This document shows, one piece after another, positions 26,480 to 62,585 of a stretch of 64,000 nt of DNA. Position numbers and translations under genes: made by a program. The stretch lies in contig NZ_CP022242.1 in assembly GCF_003351865.1 (NCBI RefSeq), forward strand, positions 930,001 to 994,000. The letters run 5' to 3'. The notes under the pieces are model-generated. The model ran no database searches, had not been told where the DNA came from, and saw only the letters and a list, made by a program, of their open reading frames with translations. This DNA is from Methanofervidicoccus sp. A16. GTDB taxonomy: Archaea; AGJL01; Methanococci; Methanococcales; Methanococcaceae. Each line of letters begins with the position of its first letter. Within the stretch, counting starts at the first letter, position 1.

Positions 26480-26899
26480 ATTTTCCCCTTTTTTACTATT
26501 TAATCTAAATTAACGTATCATTGAGAATTTAATAATAAAAATAATTATTATTATAATATAAAACAATAATATAAAATCCTAGTTCCCATCAAAGTGATAA
26601 TGTAAAAAATAATAATAAAATTATAAAATAAGAATAAAAACTAAAAAAATTAAAAAGAAATCTTACTTGCTTATCCAGTATCTAATATAGGAGGAAAAGG
26701 TTATTTAACTTTTTTATCTCTATCCCTTCAGAATTATTTTATTATTCCTCTTAAAACTTTTATTATTTTTATTATAATAATTATTATTCTTCTAAATTAC
26801 AATCTTGATGGGAACTGAGGTTAATATAAAAATAATAAAAAATACGTTAAAACACTTGATAAAAATTATAATACCGATAAATAAAAAGGTATATTCAGA
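26480..26899. other. Intergenic region occupied by an R3 element
   Basis: A 420-bp gap between HMG-CoA reductase and cbiT. Most of it is the R3a element (26577-26821); the remainder is AT-rich spacer. Confidence 0.6.
26577..26821 (+). repeat. R3 element, copy a (complete)
   Basis: A 245-bp non-coding element with inverted ends tcctagttcccatcaaagtg and aatcttgatgggaactgagg. Distinct interior from R1 and R2: ataagaataaaaactaaaaa on the left, a central ttgcttatccagtatctaat, and cccttcagaattattttatt on the right. It is the reference for the interrupted copy at 35545-36123 and the remnant at 24483-24661. Confidence 0.75.
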
Positions 26900-28537: not shown

Positions 28538-29479
28538 GGAGTGTATATTTAAGTATATTGGCTATTAAGGTAGAGTTTTGCTAATTTTTTTATATTTTTT
28601 TTAATAATATATTTTTACAATATTTTTTTATTAACAATAAATACGACAATCATTCTGAACAGAACTTTTTAAATTAATAACAACTATCGAGGATCTTAAA
28701 TAAAAAAGTAAATAATTATAAAAAGAATACCCTAATTCCCATCAAAAGAATAATTTAAAGAATAAATAGAAATAATTATAAAGATAATAAAATAAAGAAA
28801 ATGTTTAAAAAACAGAAAACTCCTATCATCCTAGATACAAACTAATTTTAAAATAAATATTGAAGGAGAATGATTCTCTAAATATCTTTTAATATAGGGA
28901 TTCAGAATGAGATATTCTATCTTACCTAAGGGTTCGGAAAGATCCTAGAATGTTTAATAGTTTTTATATAGTTTTATACTGATTATTTTAATCATGATTT
29001 TTAATTATAATAATTATCATTTTCACTGTTCTTTTAATTACTACTGATGGAAACTAAGGTAAAAAGAATAATTAAAATTATAAAAAATAATATTGAAACT
29101 GTTAATATCCAATAAAAACAAAATAGGGGCAAAAAAGCAAAAAATATACCCTTGTCCTCGAGTTTGCACTGAGTACTGGAGAAAACAGGGCAGAGTTTCT
29201 GTTAAACCTTCTTCTTAGAAGTTTTTCCTCTCTTTTTTATTATTAATCTTTTATCCCAATTTTTTGGTTATTATTATTTTTTATTAATAAATTTTTAAAA
29301 GTTATGTTTTTGACTATAATTATTAGAAAAATAATAAAAGGGTAAGGGGTAGAAACTTAGTATCTCGAAGTAGCAAGAGGGTATTTATTTTTATTTAATG
29401 AGAAAATTAAGATATTAATCAAGAACATAGGATTTTATTACTTTAAAAACCAGAAAATACTTTAACAAGGGATTAAAAT
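28538..29479. other. Intergenic region with an R1 element
   Basis: A 940-bp gap after radA containing R1d (28729-29060), then a 420-bp AT-rich stretch with one copy of the degenerate tactggagaaa motif (29171-29195). No ORF is supported. Confidence 0.55.
28729..29060 (-). repeat. R1 element, copy d (opposite orientation)
   Basis: Opens accctaattcccatcaaaag and closes tactgatggaaactaaggt, 332 bp, reverse complement of copies a-c. Shares gaaggagaatgattctctaa, agggattcagaatgagatat and the gttcttttaattactact right-end block. Confidence 0.8.
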
Positions 29480-34622: not shown

Positions 34623-34737
34623 AGTTATCCCAGAATGAGAGTTAACTGATTTACGACTTTAAAAATTATTTTTTTTCTTATTATTTTTATATTTTTAATT
34701 ATTAAGATATAATTATCATCTTTATAAGGTGGCTCCT

Positions 34738-35523
34738 ATGGAAATTGTAGTCCTTGTTGATAACATCGCCAGTAAACCCTACATTGCTCAACATGGTTTA
34801 TCCATAATTGTAAAAACTGAGGACAGGAAAATACTATTTGATACAGGCCAGGACCCTAATACGTTAAAGAGGAATTTAAAGTTAATGGGGGAGGATGACA
34901 ACTTCGACTGTATAGTTATAAGTCATGGTCATTACGATCATACAGATGGACTGAAGTACTTTATAGAGGGAGGCAAAAGTAGACTTAAAGTACCTATATA
35001 CATACATCCAGAGGCCTTTGTAGACAGGTATATAGAGGGGAGATATATAGGAATCGATAGAAATCTGAAGAAGTATCTAAAAAAAGAGAATCTAATACTT
35101 GTAAACGATAAACCTCACTATGAAAAGGATATGATAGTATCTGGGAAAGTTGAAAGGTTATTTCCTTACGAGATAGATCCGTTTTATATGGTTTTGGAGG
35201 ATGGAACACGTAAAGTAGACTATGTAAATGATGATATGTTTATAATTGTTGAGGATATTGTATTTACAGGGTGTGCCCATAGTGGTATAATTAACGTTAT
35301 AGAATACGCCAAGAAGATAAACAAGAATGTTAGGGGAGTTGTAGGAGGTTTCCATCTAATCCATGCCTCAAAAGATTATATAAAGACAGTATATGACTAC
35401 CTCTCTGCCCACAACTTCGAATTTATAATGCCTCTCCACTGTACAGGCTTATACGCCACAAAGGTTTTGAGTAAATTGAACAACTTTATATATGGACATG
35501 TTGGTAAAAAGTTGATGGTATAA
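34738..35523 (+). CDS. Metallo-beta-lactamase-fold hydrolase (COG1237, MJ0301-like)
   Basis: Zinc hydrolase of the COG1237 group, whose Methanocaldococcus member has been linked to the dihydropteroate-synthase step of methanopterin synthesis. Seen: N-terminal VLVDNIASKPYIAQHGLS, metal motif HGHYDH at residues 63-68, later GCAHSGIINV and FHLIHAS, and MPLHCTGLYATKVL near the end. The frame opens at GTG 34729 but AGGTGG is placed for the ATG at 34738. 261 residues, monocistronic. Fold and family are certain; the pterin role is inferred from the family. Confidence 0.88.
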   Translation: MEIVVLVDNIASKPYIAQHGLSIIVKTEDRKILFDTGQDPNTLKRNLKLMGEDDNFDCIVISHGHYDHTDGLKYFIEGGKSRLKVPIYIHPEAFVDRYIEGRYIGIDRNLKKYLKKENLILVNDKPHYEKDMIVSGKVERLFPYEIDPFYMVLEDGTRKVDYVNDDMFIIVEDIVFTGCAHSGIINVIEYAKKINKNVRGVVGGFHLIHASKDYIKTVYDYLSAHNFEFIMPLHCTGLYATKVLSKLNNFIYGHVGKKLMV

Positions 35524-35544
35524 TTAATTAAAAAAGTTAATATT

Positions 35545-36123
35545 AGCCCCAATTCCATTAAGATAGTAATTAAAAAAATAATAATTATTATTATGATAAA
35601 AATTATAAAAGTTTTAAGAGGAATAATATAAAAGGAATAAAATTCTGATAGACGTAAAAAACAAAATATAACCATTTGGACACTGAAAGAAACAGGTAGG
35701 ATTACTTTTTAATTTTTTTAGTTTTTATCCTTATTTTTATTTTATTAATATTATTTTACCCTACTTCCCATCAAAAGGATAGTCCAAAAAATAATAAAAA
35801 TAATTATAAAAAATAATAGATTAATAAAAATAAAAAATAAAGAATAATGTTTAAAAAACAGAAAAATTTAAAAAGAGGATTGAAGGAAAATGATCCTCTA
35901 AATATCTTTTAATACAGGGATTCAGAAATAAGATCTCATAATATTATCTAAGGATTCGGAAAGGTCCTAAGGATATTCAATAGTTTTTATATAGATTTTA
36001 TACTGATTATTTTAATCATGATTTTTATTATAATAATTATCATTTTTCACTGTTCTTTTAATCACTACTTGGTGGGAACTAAGGTATATTATTTTATATT
36101 ATCACTTTGGTGGGAACTAGGGT
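35545..36123 (-). repeat. R3 element, copy b, interrupted by R1e
   Basis: The left part (35545-35757) matches the reverse complement of R3a in order: aattattattatgataaaaa, aaaagttttaagaggaataa, then tttttaatttttttagtttt. The right part (36086-36123, atattatcactttggtggga then actagggt) is the missing R3 end. Removing R1e and one target copy restores a continuous R3. Confidence 0.75.
35758..36085 (-). repeat. R1 element, copy e, with target site duplication
   Basis: 328 bp opening accctacttcccatcaaaag and closing cttggtgggaactaaggt. It is flanked by atattatttt(a): 35748-35757 on the left and 36086-36095 on the right (an eleventh base, a, is ambiguous with the terminus). Interior blocks agggattcagaaataagatc and gattgaaggaaaatgatcct match R1d. 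Confidence 0.85.
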
Positions 36124-36321
36124 TTGATATTATAATTAGAAGTTTATTTTATTATAATTATTTTTCGTTAAAATGTTATATCTCTGGTTAAAATTAAATA
36201 CCCTAGAACATCTATAGATTTCCAATATTTTTTAAACTACTAATGCCACCCTAAGAGAAGATCTAACAGGATTCTCTATCTCTTCTTCTAATGTTTAGAC
36301 TTTAACTGGGAGGATGATACT

Positions 36322-37786: not shown

Positions 37787-38334
37787 ACCTTAGTTCCCAC
37801 CAAGTTAGTGATTAAAAGAACAATGAAAATAATAAATATAAAAACCTTAATTCCCATCAAAGTAATGATTTGAATAATAAAAATAAGAATAATAAAAAAA
37901 AGACTGAAATTATAATAAAAATTAATAACAGCAACTGTTAGGGAGGATCTGCTCCACTTCCATAGTATCTTAGAGCGTCCCAGAAAGATTATCTTTTATT
38001 TTAATTTTAATGTCCTCACTTATACTTTTATTTTTATAATTATTGTTATTCTTATCAGAATTTTTGATGGGAAGTAGAGTTCAGTATAAAAAATCATTAA
38101 ATACTCTTAGAATCTTCTGAACATTTAGGTAAGATAAGAAATTATATTCTGATATCCTCTATATTAGAAGATGTACAGAGGATCATTCTCTTTCAATCTT
38201 CTTTTTTAAATTTTTTCTGCATCTGGGATAATAGAAGTTTTTATTTTAAAATCTTTTCTTTATTATTTTTATTTTATTATTTTTATAATTATTTTTATTA
38301 TTTTTTAGACTATCCTTTTGATAGGAACTAGGAT
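37787..38334 (+). repeat. R1 element, copy f, interrupted by R2a
   Basis: Left end accttagttcccaccaagtt with gtgattaaaagaacaatgaa (37787-37843), then R2a, then the R1 interior resumes at cagtataaaaaatcattaaa (38082) and runs through cagaggatcattctctttca to the right end ccttttgataggaactagg. Without R2a it is about 310 bp, the usual R1 size. Confidence 0.78.
37844..38080 (-). repeat. R2 element, copy a, inserted in R1f
   Basis: 237 bp with inverted ends accttaattcccatcaaagt and tttttgatgggaagtagagt. The interior carries the R2 core (about 37930-37985): aacagcaactgttagggagg, atctgctccacttccatagt, atcttagagc. A clean target duplication is not visible, though tataaaa stands at both junctions with a small offset. 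Confidence 0.78.
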
Positions 38335-38357: not shown

Positions 38358-38795
38358 CTACTCCAACTCTTCAAGAAACTTGGCTATCTTTTGAACCACA
38401 ACCTTTGCCTCCTCTTCATTCTTTGGATAGATAAGGTTTAACTTAGGTATCCTCCTTCTTCTTATAAGGTACTTTGTAAGTTCATTTGTCCTGGCACAAC
38501 CTATACATCCAAATGCTATAGGAGCCTCATCCATTATAATGGCAGCATCTGCCTCCTCAATTAAGGGACCTATTAAGGACATTCTCCCCCTAACTCCAGA
38601 GGGCACCTCTATTGCTGCATAACGTAATCCCTTCTTGGGATCTTCATCTGTCATGTTCATAGGAGGACTGTCTATCTCTGGAGTTCTAACCTTCTTACCT
38701 ACAACGTTGTTGAGCATTAAGGGTTTATGGCCAAACCTCTCAACGAGATCTCCAAGTATTAGACTGTTAGGTGGATAGATAAATATCTTCTTCAT
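38358..38795 (-). CDS. Methanogenesis marker protein 5 (DUF2112)
   Basis: A 145-residue protein of a family confined to methanogens, function unknown. Family features seen: [18 protein letters not shown] at the N-terminus, [24 protein letters not shown] in the middle and [17 protein letters not shown] with two conserved cysteines (CxxC) near residues 96-99. It ends in a helix-rich tail. It follows the DUF2111 gene by 18 bp on the minus strand, so the two form an operon, divergent from purD. Confidence 0.9.
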
Positions 38796-38813
38796 ACTCT
38801 CACCTAATAATTT

Positions 38814-39203
38814 TTATTTAGGGAAGGCTTCCTCAGGTAGGAATTTCATCAACTCTGGTCTCCTTGAAAGGGTCAGTATTTCCTCAAATATTCCTGCAGT
38901 GATATCTACTACTCCAATCGCTCCAAGAACCTCTCCATCATCTACTATCGGCACCACTATTACTGGCAGTCCTGCATAGGGTCCCTTTACAGCACTTACC
39001 CTCAAGGTCTGTCCCAACTCTATAGCCAACTTTAACACGTATCCCTCGTAGTTGGTATCTACTATTTTACCCTTTTCAACCCTTACACCAGGTTTTTCCT
39101 TGGATCTCATAGCAACAGGTACCTTATTTACAAGTAGATGTATTGTATATGCTATAGGTGCAATATCCTTAGCATCTGCATTTTTCAAAACCTCCTTTAA
39201 CAC
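38814..39203 (-). CDS. DUF2111 family protein
   Basis: A 129-residue methanogen protein with a single alpha/beta domain resembling PAS/GAF-like sensor folds: GQTLRVSAVKGPYAGLPVIV, VVPIVDDGEVLGAIGVVDIT and FEEILTLSRRPELMKFLP at the end. The pattern V(V)PI-DDGE-LGAIG is typical of small-molecule sensor domains, so a sensing role for a metal or cofactor is possible but inferred. First gene of the unit with marker 5. GGTGAAAG-type site before the ATG. Confidence 0.85.
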   Translation of the reverse strand: MLKEVLKNADAKDIAPIAYTIHLLVNKVPVAMRSKEKPGVRVEKGKIVDTNYEGYVLKLAIELGQTLRVSAVKGPYAGLPVIVVPIVDDGEVLGAIGVVDITAGIFEEILTLSRRPELMKFLPEEAFPK

Positions 39204-56304: not shown

Positions 56305-56570
56305 ACCTTAATTCCCATCAAAAAAATTTTGATAAAAATAATAATAATTATAATAAAAGTAACAAAAAGAAGGTATTAAGATCAAAAATAAGATATAGAT
56401 TATCTCTCCTGAATACTCTAAGATACTATGGAATCGGAGCAGATCCTTCCTAATAGGTTGCTATTATTAATATTTATTATGAAGATTTTTCTCCTTCAAT
56501 CTTCTTTTTAAAATGTTTTTATAATTATCCTTATTATTCTTTAAACTATCCTTTTGATGGGAACTAGGGT
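56305..56570 (+). repeat. Hybrid R2/R1 element
   Basis: 266 bp with the left end of R2 (accttaattcccatcaaaaa, then the R2 core ctaagatactatggaatcgg and agcagatccttcctaatagg) joined after ttgctattattaat to the right end of R1 (ctccttcaatcttcttttta then actatccttttgatgggaac). Inverted termini are intact. It fills the gap between two convergent stop codons. Confidence 0.75.
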
Positions 56571-59306: not shown

Positions 59307-62300
59307 TTAATTTTTCCCTTCTATAACCTTAACCCAGGGATGGGACTTTATCTTGTTTATCAGTACTGAGATCTTCCTGTCTTTTTTGATGTTTTTGACA
59401 ACTTCTTTAATTGTTTTTAAGTTTTCTTCCTCTAATTCTTTTATTTTATTTTCCTCTTCTTTATTTAATTCTCCTTCTAATTCCCTTTTCCAATAGAGTT
59501 CAGCCCAGAGATCGTAGTTAATTGGTTTTAAGTGCCTGGAGATCAACTCTAAGAGGTACTCCTTCGGCTCTGGATATAGTTTATCCTGGTAGAATTTTTC
59601 TTTAAAGTACAGTTCATAAACCAGGGAATCGATTATTTGCCTGTCGATGAAATTTATTAGTTCTTTTTCTTTTTTTCTTCTATTCTCTGTGGCGTTGAGG
59701 AAGAGGAGGTAGTCGGCGAGGGTTATGAAGGGTTGTTGGGTTGGTGGAATTTCTAGTGGAAGTGTATATATATTTTCTATTAATATCCTAGGAAATAACT
59801 GTTTTCCCTTAAAAAGTTTTGAATAATACCATTTAATTAACATAGAATTTATAATAAGTAGAAAGGTCTTGGCAGACAATTCTAATGATTTCATATGAAT
59901 ATTATAAACTGTTTGTAGTGTAATAAAATCTTGGTTTCCATCAAAAGCAGCGTTAATTTCTTCCCCTAATTGTCTAATTACTATTTTTGGAGATTTATAT
60001 AAATCTGGATTTTTCTTTATTTTTTCTTTTTCAATAAAACCATATGAACTTATATAATATCTAAAAATATTTTCTCCAGCTAAAATTTTAAGAAATTGGT
60101 TTTTTTGATTTAAATTTATTACTTTTTTTATAACCTTTTTCCCGTATTCTTCGCCTCTACGAATTTTTATAAATTTTTCACACTTTTGTTTATTAATAAG
60201 GTGTTTTATAATATCCTTTTCCTCTAAAGAAAGTATAGCAATCTGTACAAAAGGCATCTCCAGTATAAAATCTCTTGATAATAAACAGAATTTTTTCTTA
60301 TTATCATTTTTTATGTCCTTATAAGAGTGTAAATTATACACTTCTAAAATATAATCCTTGTTTTCATATCTTTTTATGAAGAAAAGTAATATATTTGAAA
60401 CTGTAGGATCACTAAAAACTTCTCTAATCCTAACAATTTTAAATATATGAGTATAATTGAGTAAAAATTCTCTTATTGGAGCATGATTAGATCTATCTAA
60501 AAATACATCTGGAATTATATATCCAAAATATCCATCTATTTTTAAGATAGTAAATGCTCTCTCTATAAATAAAGTAAATATATCATATTGACCTTTTGCT
60601 AATGAAAATAATTTTGAATAAATTAATTTATTAGATGTCTCTATCTGTTTATTACTTACATAAGGCGGATTCCCAACTATAATATCAAAACCCCTCTCCT
60701 CCTTCGGCTTCTCCAGATCAAAAACATCGTAGAACTCAAAACCCCAATGGAAGGGCTTCAAATTCAAAAACTCCTCCTTAGATATCTTGATCCCTTTCCC
60801 CCTCAACATACTGTAAAACTTCTCATTTAAAAACTCCCTCCCCTTTTCCAACTCTCTATTTAAACTCTCCTTCAACTTTACAGCCTCATGAGATGGTAAA
60901 GTCTTAAACTCCCTCTTCTTCTTAGCAAGATCTTTAAGCCACTCCACCTTACTATCTCCAAATAGGGAATCTAAGGTTATCTGTCCCCCGATAAAATCAA
61001 ACTCCACATCCTCAATATCCACAAATCCTATTAATGAATTACCAACCATTAAATTAAAATCTAAATTAGGGAGTGTTTCGATCCTCTTACCTTCAACCCT
61101 CTTAGGATCAACCTGAGATATCAACCAGAGCCAGAACCTCAATTTAGCGATCTCAACTGCACCCTCCATTACATCTACTCCATAGAGGTTATTTACAATT
61201 ATCTGCCTAACGATGTAGTAGTTCCTCGTTGGAGATCTTTCCATCTCCTCTAAAACCTTTTTAACGTCCTTATCCTCACTTAAATTCTCCCCTAAGATCT
61301 TCAAAACCCTACTGTACAACCTAAGTAGAATATCCCCAACAGCGATTAAGAAACTACCAGAACCACAGGCGTTATCACAGATCTTCAATTTCCTTAAAAC
61401 TTCAAAGTAGAGGTACTTTACAATCTCCAGTTCCTCCCCACTAAAACTATCCTTACTGAAGAGGTTATCGAGTAAAGTTTCCCCATCCCCTTTAAACCTC
61501 TCCCTCAACCTATCTCTGATATAGGGATAGATGGTATTCATGGAGATGTAGTTTGTGATCTCCTCAGGTGTATAGTAGGCTCCAATCTTCTTCCTCCCAT
61601 ACCTCAACTCCCTTCTGACAGTATGGACATCCTCTAACTTTATCCTCCCAAGTCCTATCTGCTCCAGGGAGACGACAAACTTTTCATATATATGTCCGAT
61701 GATCTCCGGTGTTAGATCTCCAACTACATCCTCCTCCTCGGGAAGTTCCTCTCCAATTATCCAGTTGTAGTTGTTGAGGACATCGAGGATCAACTTCTTT
61801 ATCCCGGAGATCCTAATATCCCTCTCTGAAATACCTTCAACCTCCTCCTCCACAAACAACCCACCGTTTAAGCAAGGTGATAGAATAGAGAACCTCTCCC
61901 CTCCAATCTCAAACTCCTCCGAGACAAAACCCCTCTCATTAACCTTCCCTAAAACGTCAAAGAATATCCTGTTGAGAAACTCCTGCAACTCCTCCTCACT
62001 AAGTTGATCACAGATCCACTGGAAAAACTCCCTTGTATTCCTCCTATCTAAAACCCACTCCATCCCCTCGCTCCTTACCTTTATAAGTTTCAACTGGGCG
62101 AGGAAGTAGAAGAAGATGAGTCTGTCGATCAGACGTTGGACAACTATAAGTTTATCCCTATCCTCCTTCAACTCCTCTATACTCTTAGCCATCAGTATTC
62201 TATGCTCCCACAACTCCCAGTAAAACTTCTCTACAACGTCCCTGATATCGAAGAGAATATTCATATTGTCTGGAGAGAACCTCTTCAGTTTATCCTCCCT

Positions 62301-62585
62301 ACTCTTCCGATAGTCCTTTCTCATCTTAGGAGAATAGTAGAACCATTTAATCTCACCGATCCTCCTAAAAACTTTTACTTTTCCTGTAGAGGGAAAGAAA
62401 AACCAGATATACTTAACCTTCAGAGACATTAACCTCCTCTTTATCCTCTCAACCTCTTCGTTGGAGGAAACCTCCACATAGGCTAACATATTCTTTTCAT
62501 CCACTAAAGCCCCCTCAACATCCTCCAACGGTATAACCTTTTTAAAAAATCCCTTCTCCTTCAACCAATCTAAGTTATAAACCAT
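59307..62585 (-). CDS. Type IIG restriction-modification enzyme (N6-adenine, Eco57I-like)
   Basis: One 1092-residue chain combining endonuclease, methyltransferase and specificity parts. SAM motif DNACGSGSF at 404-412 and catalytic NPPYV at 639-643 define the gamma-class adenine methyltransferase; the N-terminal 300 residues would hold the nuclease, though I cannot fix a PD-(D/E)xK site (VEVSS near 38-42 is one candidate). Residues about 640-945 are the TaqI-like target recognition region, encoded by markedly more AT-rich DNA than either flank (see findings). The end is a charged helical tail. GGTGAT precedes the ATG. No separate R, M or S genes nearby; BREX PglX was considered, but no BREX partners are present. 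Confidence 0.87.
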   Translation of the reverse strand: MVYNLDWLKEKGFFKKVIPLEDVEGALVDEKNMLAYVEVSSNEEVERIKRRLMSLKVKYIWFFFPSTGKVKVFRRIGEIKWFYYSPKMRKDYRKSREDKLKRFSPDNMNILFDIRDVVEKFYWELWEHRILMAKSIEELKEDRDKLIVVQRLIDRLIFFYFLAQLKLIKVRSEGMEWVLDRRNTREFFQWICDQLSEEELQEFLNRIFFDVLGKVNERGFVSEEFEIGGERFSILSPCLNGGLFVEEEVEGISERDIRISGIKKLILDVLNNYNWIIGEELPEEEDVVGDLTPEIIGHIYEKFVVSLEQIGLGRIKLEDVHTVRRELRYGRKKIGAYYTPEEITNYISMNTIYPYIRDRLRERFKGDGETLLDNLFSKDSFSGEELEIVKYLYFEVLRKLKICDNACGSGSFLIAVGDILLRLYSRVLKILGENLSEDKDVKKVLEEMERSPTRNYYIVRQIIVNNLYGVDVMEGAVEIAKLRFWLWLISQVDPKRVEGKRIETLPNLDFNLMVGNSLIGFVDIEDVEFDFIGGQITLDSLFGDSKVEWLKDLAKKKREFKTLPSHEAVKLKESLNRELEKGREFLNEKFYSMLRGKGIKISKEEFLNLKPFHWGFEFYDVFDLEKPKEERGFDIIVGNPPYVSNKQIETSNKLIYSKLFSLAKGQYDIFTLFIERAFTILKIDGYFGYIIPDVFLDRSNHAPIREFLLNYTHIFKIVRIREVFSDPTVSNILLFFIKRYENKDYILEVYNLHSYKDIKNDNKKKFCLLSRDFILEMPFVQIAILSLEEKDIIKHLINKQKCEKFIKIRRGEEYGKKVIKKVINLNQKNQFLKILAGENIFRYYISSYGFIEKEKIKKNPDLYKSPKIVIRQLGEEINAAFDGNQDFITLQTVYNIHMKSLELSAKTFLLIINSMLIKWYYSKLFKGKQLFPRILIENIYTLPLEIPPTQQPFITLADYLLFLNATENRRKKEKELINFIDRQIIDSLVYELYFKEKFYQDKLYPEPKEYLLELISRHLKPINYDLWAELYWKRELEGELNKEEENKIKELEEENLKTIKEVVKNIKKDRKISVLINKIKSHPWVKVIEGKN

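Follow-up and report, generated by a model that had tools for sequence, protein, structure and literature searches.

The window is the whole 64,000-nucleotide stretch analysed here (G000:C1:930001-994000), taken from an archaeal genome that is a single contig of 1,504,113 bp. The archaeon is a heat-loving methane producer; one protein of the window shares 85% identity with a protein of a Methanothermococcus okinawensis MAG, which places it as a Methanothermococcus-like member of the Methanococcales. Between two of its genes, UP, which belongs to the metallo-beta-lactamase superfamily, and DN, lies a nest of two short gene-less elements (35545-36123), in which an R1 copy (R1e) interrupts an R3 copy (R3b). 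A second nest, of an R4 element inside an R1 copy, separates DN from the genes X and Y (DUF2112 and DUF2111), and an intact R3 (R3a), a further R1 copy and a chimeric element lie elsewhere in the window. The window also encodes, at 59307-62585, a restriction-modification-like protein, 1092 aa long, that combines Eco57I-type methylase with TaqI-like specificity domains.

Table 1 Features of the nests, their neighbours and the composite elements (window positions, except where the contig G000:C1 is named)
Feature	Position	Strand	Remarks
UP	34729-35523		
R3b own probable 8-bp duplication, left copy	35537..35544	+	TTAATATT (7/8 match)
R3b, larger part	35545..35757	-	Inverted relative to R3a; final 10 bases are the left target duplication copy
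R1e target-site duplication, left copy	35748..35757	+	ATATTATTTT
R1e, 328-bp MITE	35758..36085	+	No gene; ends ACCCTACTTCCCATCAAAAGG... / ...CACTACTTGGTGGGAACTAAGGT
R1e target-site duplication, right copy	36086..36095	+	ATATTATTTT
R3b, remaining terminal stub	36096..36123	-	Outer inverted repeat ...CACTTTGGTGGGAACTAGGGT
R3b own probable 8-bp duplication, right copy	36124..36131	+	TTGATATT
DN	36322-37503		Gene inverted versus G005, G008 and G010
R1 copy with R4 MITE nested inside (37844-38080)	37787..38334	-	8-bp duplication TAATAATA
X and Y	38358-39203		
R3a, intact R3	26576..26821	+	Unoccupied paralogue of the R1e target site; duplication TAATATAAA, 9 bp, exact
Other R1 copy	28729..29060	+	Exact 9-bp duplication AAAAAGAAT
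Chimeric MITE with an end from R4 and another from R1	56305..56570	+	Exact 8-bp duplication AATCTTTT
Composite, R1 + 38-bp R3 stub	G000:C1:176103-176524		Exact 8-bp outer duplication TCTTTAAT
Composite, R3 stub + R1	G000:C1:1211596-1211985		Exact 8-bp outer duplication
Composite, R4 stub + R1	G000:C1:1408023-1408432		Exact 8-bp outer duplication
Composite, R1 + R4 stub	G000:C1:1137057-1137455		Exact 10-bp outer duplication

The nest and the order of insertion

The first bases of R1e, at 35758, are ACCCTACTTCCC and its last, up to the T at 36085, are ...GGGAACTAAGGT (final letters CTAAGGT). An exact 10-bp copy of ATATTATTTT stands on either side of the element, in agreement with the original prediction of an R1 inserted into R3 with a 10-11 bp target duplication. 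The length is best called 10 bp, an optional 11th base being the A of the terminal ACC, and it falls at the long end of the family range (7-12 bp; norm 8 bp). Both boundaries obey A|CC...GG|T, and it is at boundaries of this form that the genome's other MITE copies show duplications. When flanks from the same AT-rich context were mismatched, exact matches of at least 10 bp occurred in 0.06% of all pairs and exact matches of 8-13 bp in 0.38%. The insertion of R1e into R3b between 10-bp target duplications is confirmed.

Removal of R1e and one copy of the duplication joins the halves of R3b into 241 nt that align end to end with the oppositely oriented R3a (77%), with a score of 134.5 against a shuffled-sequence maximum of 39.5; the predicted collinearity with R3a thus held when the pairwise alignment was run. 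R3a itself proved to be the intact element it had been taken for, with its left boundary one base further out than the 26577 first given. Against five further R3 copies the rejoined sequence reaches 83.5-88.8%, in alignments that cross the junction, and deletion of one duplication copy outscores keeping both against 5 of 6 R3 references and outscores deleting both against all 6. R3b rejoins to a complete R3 and, because it is itself probably flanked by an 8-bp duplication, R3 was there first and R1 came second, as had been proposed. No base-precise empty site was found in other genomes: the intergenic sequence of even the nearest relatives has diverged too far. Coarse evidence for empty sites comes from gap lengths: the UP-DN gap is ~14 bp in three other genomes (G005, G008 and G010) versus ~800 bp here, and the gap around the R3a locus is ~14 bp in relatives versus 421 bp here. 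The R1e/R3b nest fixes boundaries and duplication at once for a genome-wide element family.

Three MITE families and their target duplications

R1, R3 and R4 have in common a ~16-bp end, ACCYTAGTTCCCAYCAA. The terminal motif YNARTTCCCAYCAA, with at most one mismatch, occurs 451 times genome-wide compared with 15 times for a reversed control pattern. The elements form a swarm of about two hundred in the 1.50-Mb genome. BLAST of the own genome returned at least 35 full copies of R1, mostly 265-384 bp long; R3 measures ~240 bp and R4 ~250 bp, and no ORF of at least 120 aa lies within the window copies.

Duplications were tested on short stretches around ~40 loci with all ends marked, the boundary for the scan being set at A|CC...GG|T. 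Over 51 elements the signal has a sharp maximum at 8 bp (mean identity 0.62 versus 0.45, z 6.5). A qualifying duplication, defined as exact over 8-13 bp or as at least 10 bp long with one mismatch, was present in 31 of 110 inward-facing end pairs versus 0.87% of control pairs, with 8 bp dominant and a range of 7-12 bp, which substantiates the earlier claim that R1 moves by a transposition that duplicates its target. R1, R3 and R4 are MITEs: they are short, gene-less and present in many copies, their duplications have a characteristic length (mode 8 bp), and their terminal inverted repeats are common to autonomous IS elements of three other genomes (G006, G014 and G023).

R1 copies lie 7-13% away from their own consensus, and the two nearest to each other, R1e and G000:641074, share 93.5% identity; these divergence figures leave out copies 958729, 1211641 and 1415148. 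Among the matches listed from a search of 11 congeners, a full-length R1 match was present only in G001.

The IS982 family as the likely mover

In related Methanococcales the same end motif pairs off at ~1 kb. These ends, nearly identical over ~16 bp, bound IS elements of 942-1044 bp in G014, G023 and G006, whose transposase matches the NCBIfam IS982 model NF033520 (E 4.5e-37; 128 bits, with a curated cut-off of 130) and Pfam DDE_Tnp_1. Six of the relatives' IS copies were checked: three carry exact duplications, of 8, 7 and 7 bp, and an exact 7-8-bp duplication is absent from the other three. Members of the IS982 family have conserved 5'-AC-3' ends and direct repeats of variable length, with table values of 0-10 bp (PMC7335449). 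The ends of R1, R3 and R4 likewise begin with 5'-AC, and nearly all of their boundaries fit A|CC...GG|T, where the duplications are exact.

The parental transposase lies between the same ends in the relatives, and only as a remnant in the own genome. This remnant, one decayed C-terminal IS982 fragment (G000:C1:218135-218344) adjoining the end ACCCTAGTTCTCATTA, is the only IS982 trace found there, and no intact IS982 gene was found. The MITEs are linked to IS982 only by their ends, the duplication length and this one remnant. Movement looks old, because the only IS982 remnant found is decayed and even the most similar R1 copies are 6.5% apart. The simplest reading is that an IS982 transposase spread the MITEs and was then lost. 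With ~450 ends in 1.5 Mb and no intact mover detected, the genome looks like the home of a large MITE swarm outliving its transposase.

Our best explanation, which we hold with high confidence, is that an IS982-family DDE transposase moved R1, R3 and R4 in trans, R3b first and R1e later. Such an enzyme would recognise the common ~16-bp end, staggered cleavage would insert the MITE at an AT-rich site, and gap repair would duplicate ~8 bp of target (10 bp at R1e). R3b would have inserted first and R1e would have landed afterwards in its AT-rich arm; to form composites, the transposase would pair an end of the guest element with the outer end of its host. That an IS982 transposase was the worker, and that movement has stopped in this genome, are both inferences.

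We consider it improbable that R1 did insert into R3 but was moved by a transposase of another family recognising similar ends. Such a mover would accord with the lack of an intact IS982 gene in the own genome and with MITE interiors for which no IS982 origin is known, but the ends match those of IS982 elements in three other genomes over ~16 bp, the sole transposase remnant found in the own genome bears nearly the same end, and that genome yielded no DDE_Tnp_1 match.

Less probable again is that AT-rich repeats built the nest by recombining homologously or by gene conversion, the 10-bp repeat being a chance match in AT-rich DNA. The flanks do consist almost wholly of A+T (chance match ~0.45 per position), and the R1/R3-stub junction of R1e recurs in the composite at G000:C1:176103-176524, where the 38-bp stub is identical though the R1 bodies are 86% alike. 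Chance and recombination nevertheless fit poorly with a duplication that sits exactly at the element ends, in a length class common to dozens of copies and against mismatched-pair controls of 0.06-0.9%, and an R3 left whole and collinear around an equally whole R1 is not an expected product of recombination. The common junction possibly goes back to an older shared nest that conversion altered later, or to a site within R3 that insertions prefer. Direct derivation of the 176-kb composite from R1e is not supported, given the 86% likeness of the R1 bodies and the lack of rare variants in common.

The notion that R1 and R3 are functional repeats, such as RNA genes or regulatory sequences, and not mobile parasites has next to no credibility, for although the many copies and a conserved core of lower A+T content would suit it, no Rfam family matched up to its threshold, leading us to reject an RNA-family identity, and the repeats have inverted ends and target duplications, differ in their flanks and nest in one another.

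Nests, composites and their known counterparts

R4-in-R1 nests occur at three places, 60 kb, 865 kb and 967 kb (this third one is the second nest of the window), and each rejoins to R1 at 82-88%; elsewhere in the genome R1 adjoins or sits within R3 or R4. Four composites of R1 and an R3 or R4 stub (Table 1) show no duplication at R1's own ends, only at the outermost ends. Because the composites and the chimera carry outermost exact duplications, ends of different elements seem to have been paired into new mobile units; the end motif appears to suffice for movement, and ends of different elements can apparently be paired. Composites with their own duplications show a simple route from nests to new MITE families.

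At about six loci (G000:C1 200820, 732420, 826485, 1130718, 1137057 and 1408101), R1 runs at its right end into one and the same R4-type stub (tttttctagtc...), while the left flanks differ. The recurrence of this joint suggests a composite turned mobile subfamily.

The gene order beside the nest differs between genomes. The local order in the window (REARRANGEMENT) is UP> [R3b::R1e] DN> [R1::R4] <X <Y, whereas G005, G008 and G010, in which no R1 match was found, have UP> <DN <X <Y; in G010, DN and X are 78 bp apart. This comparison shows an in-place inversion of DN, each of whose breakpoints is occupied by a MITE nest (35545-36123 and 37787-38334). Inversion by recombination between the present R1 copies is not favoured; because these nests keep matching duplications on both sides, they are probably not the recombining copies, or inserted later. 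That nested IS982-type MITEs acted in this archaeal lineage as a combinatorial generator, in which repeated end pairing yielded composites and chimeras as new mobile units while nests at gene borders accompanied a local gene inversion, is a proposal to which we give an even chance.

Few archaeal members of the IS982 family are on record, and the review that lists Methanotorris formicicus and Methanocaldococcus bathoardescens as potential hosts makes no mention of MITEs (PMC7335449). No archaeal IS982-type MITE was found in the literature searched, which left most subscription papers outside its scope. An IS982-derived MITE is already known from a Cardinium endosymbiont (PMC9769881), and mosaics built from miniature ends are known from Tn3-type TIMEs (PMC4133298).

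The likeness to the IS982 insertion sequences of G014, G023 and G006 lies in the ACC... terminal inverted repeats with their ~16-bp core, the AT-rich targets, the 7-8-bp duplications seen in relatives and the one decayed remnant in the own genome; R1, R3 and R4 differ in being mostly 240-360 bp long and without a transposase, and no IS982 origin is known for their interiors. MITECca01 of Cardinium resembles them in its size of circa 240 bp, its lack of genes, its IS982-family ends and its many copies (PMC9769881). It resides, however, in a bacterial endosymbiont that keeps intact parental copies, whereas the archaeon described here holds several old element families and no intact parent was found in it. 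TIMEs, inverted-repeat miniature elements that derive from Tn3 and build mosaic transposons, are alike in that gene-less end pairs mobilise whatever DNA separates them and give rise to new composites, although they have Tn3-family 38-bp ends and 5-6-bp duplications (PMC4133298); R1, R3 and R4, in contrast, have IS982-type ends, and their composites appear to arise from nested MITEs.
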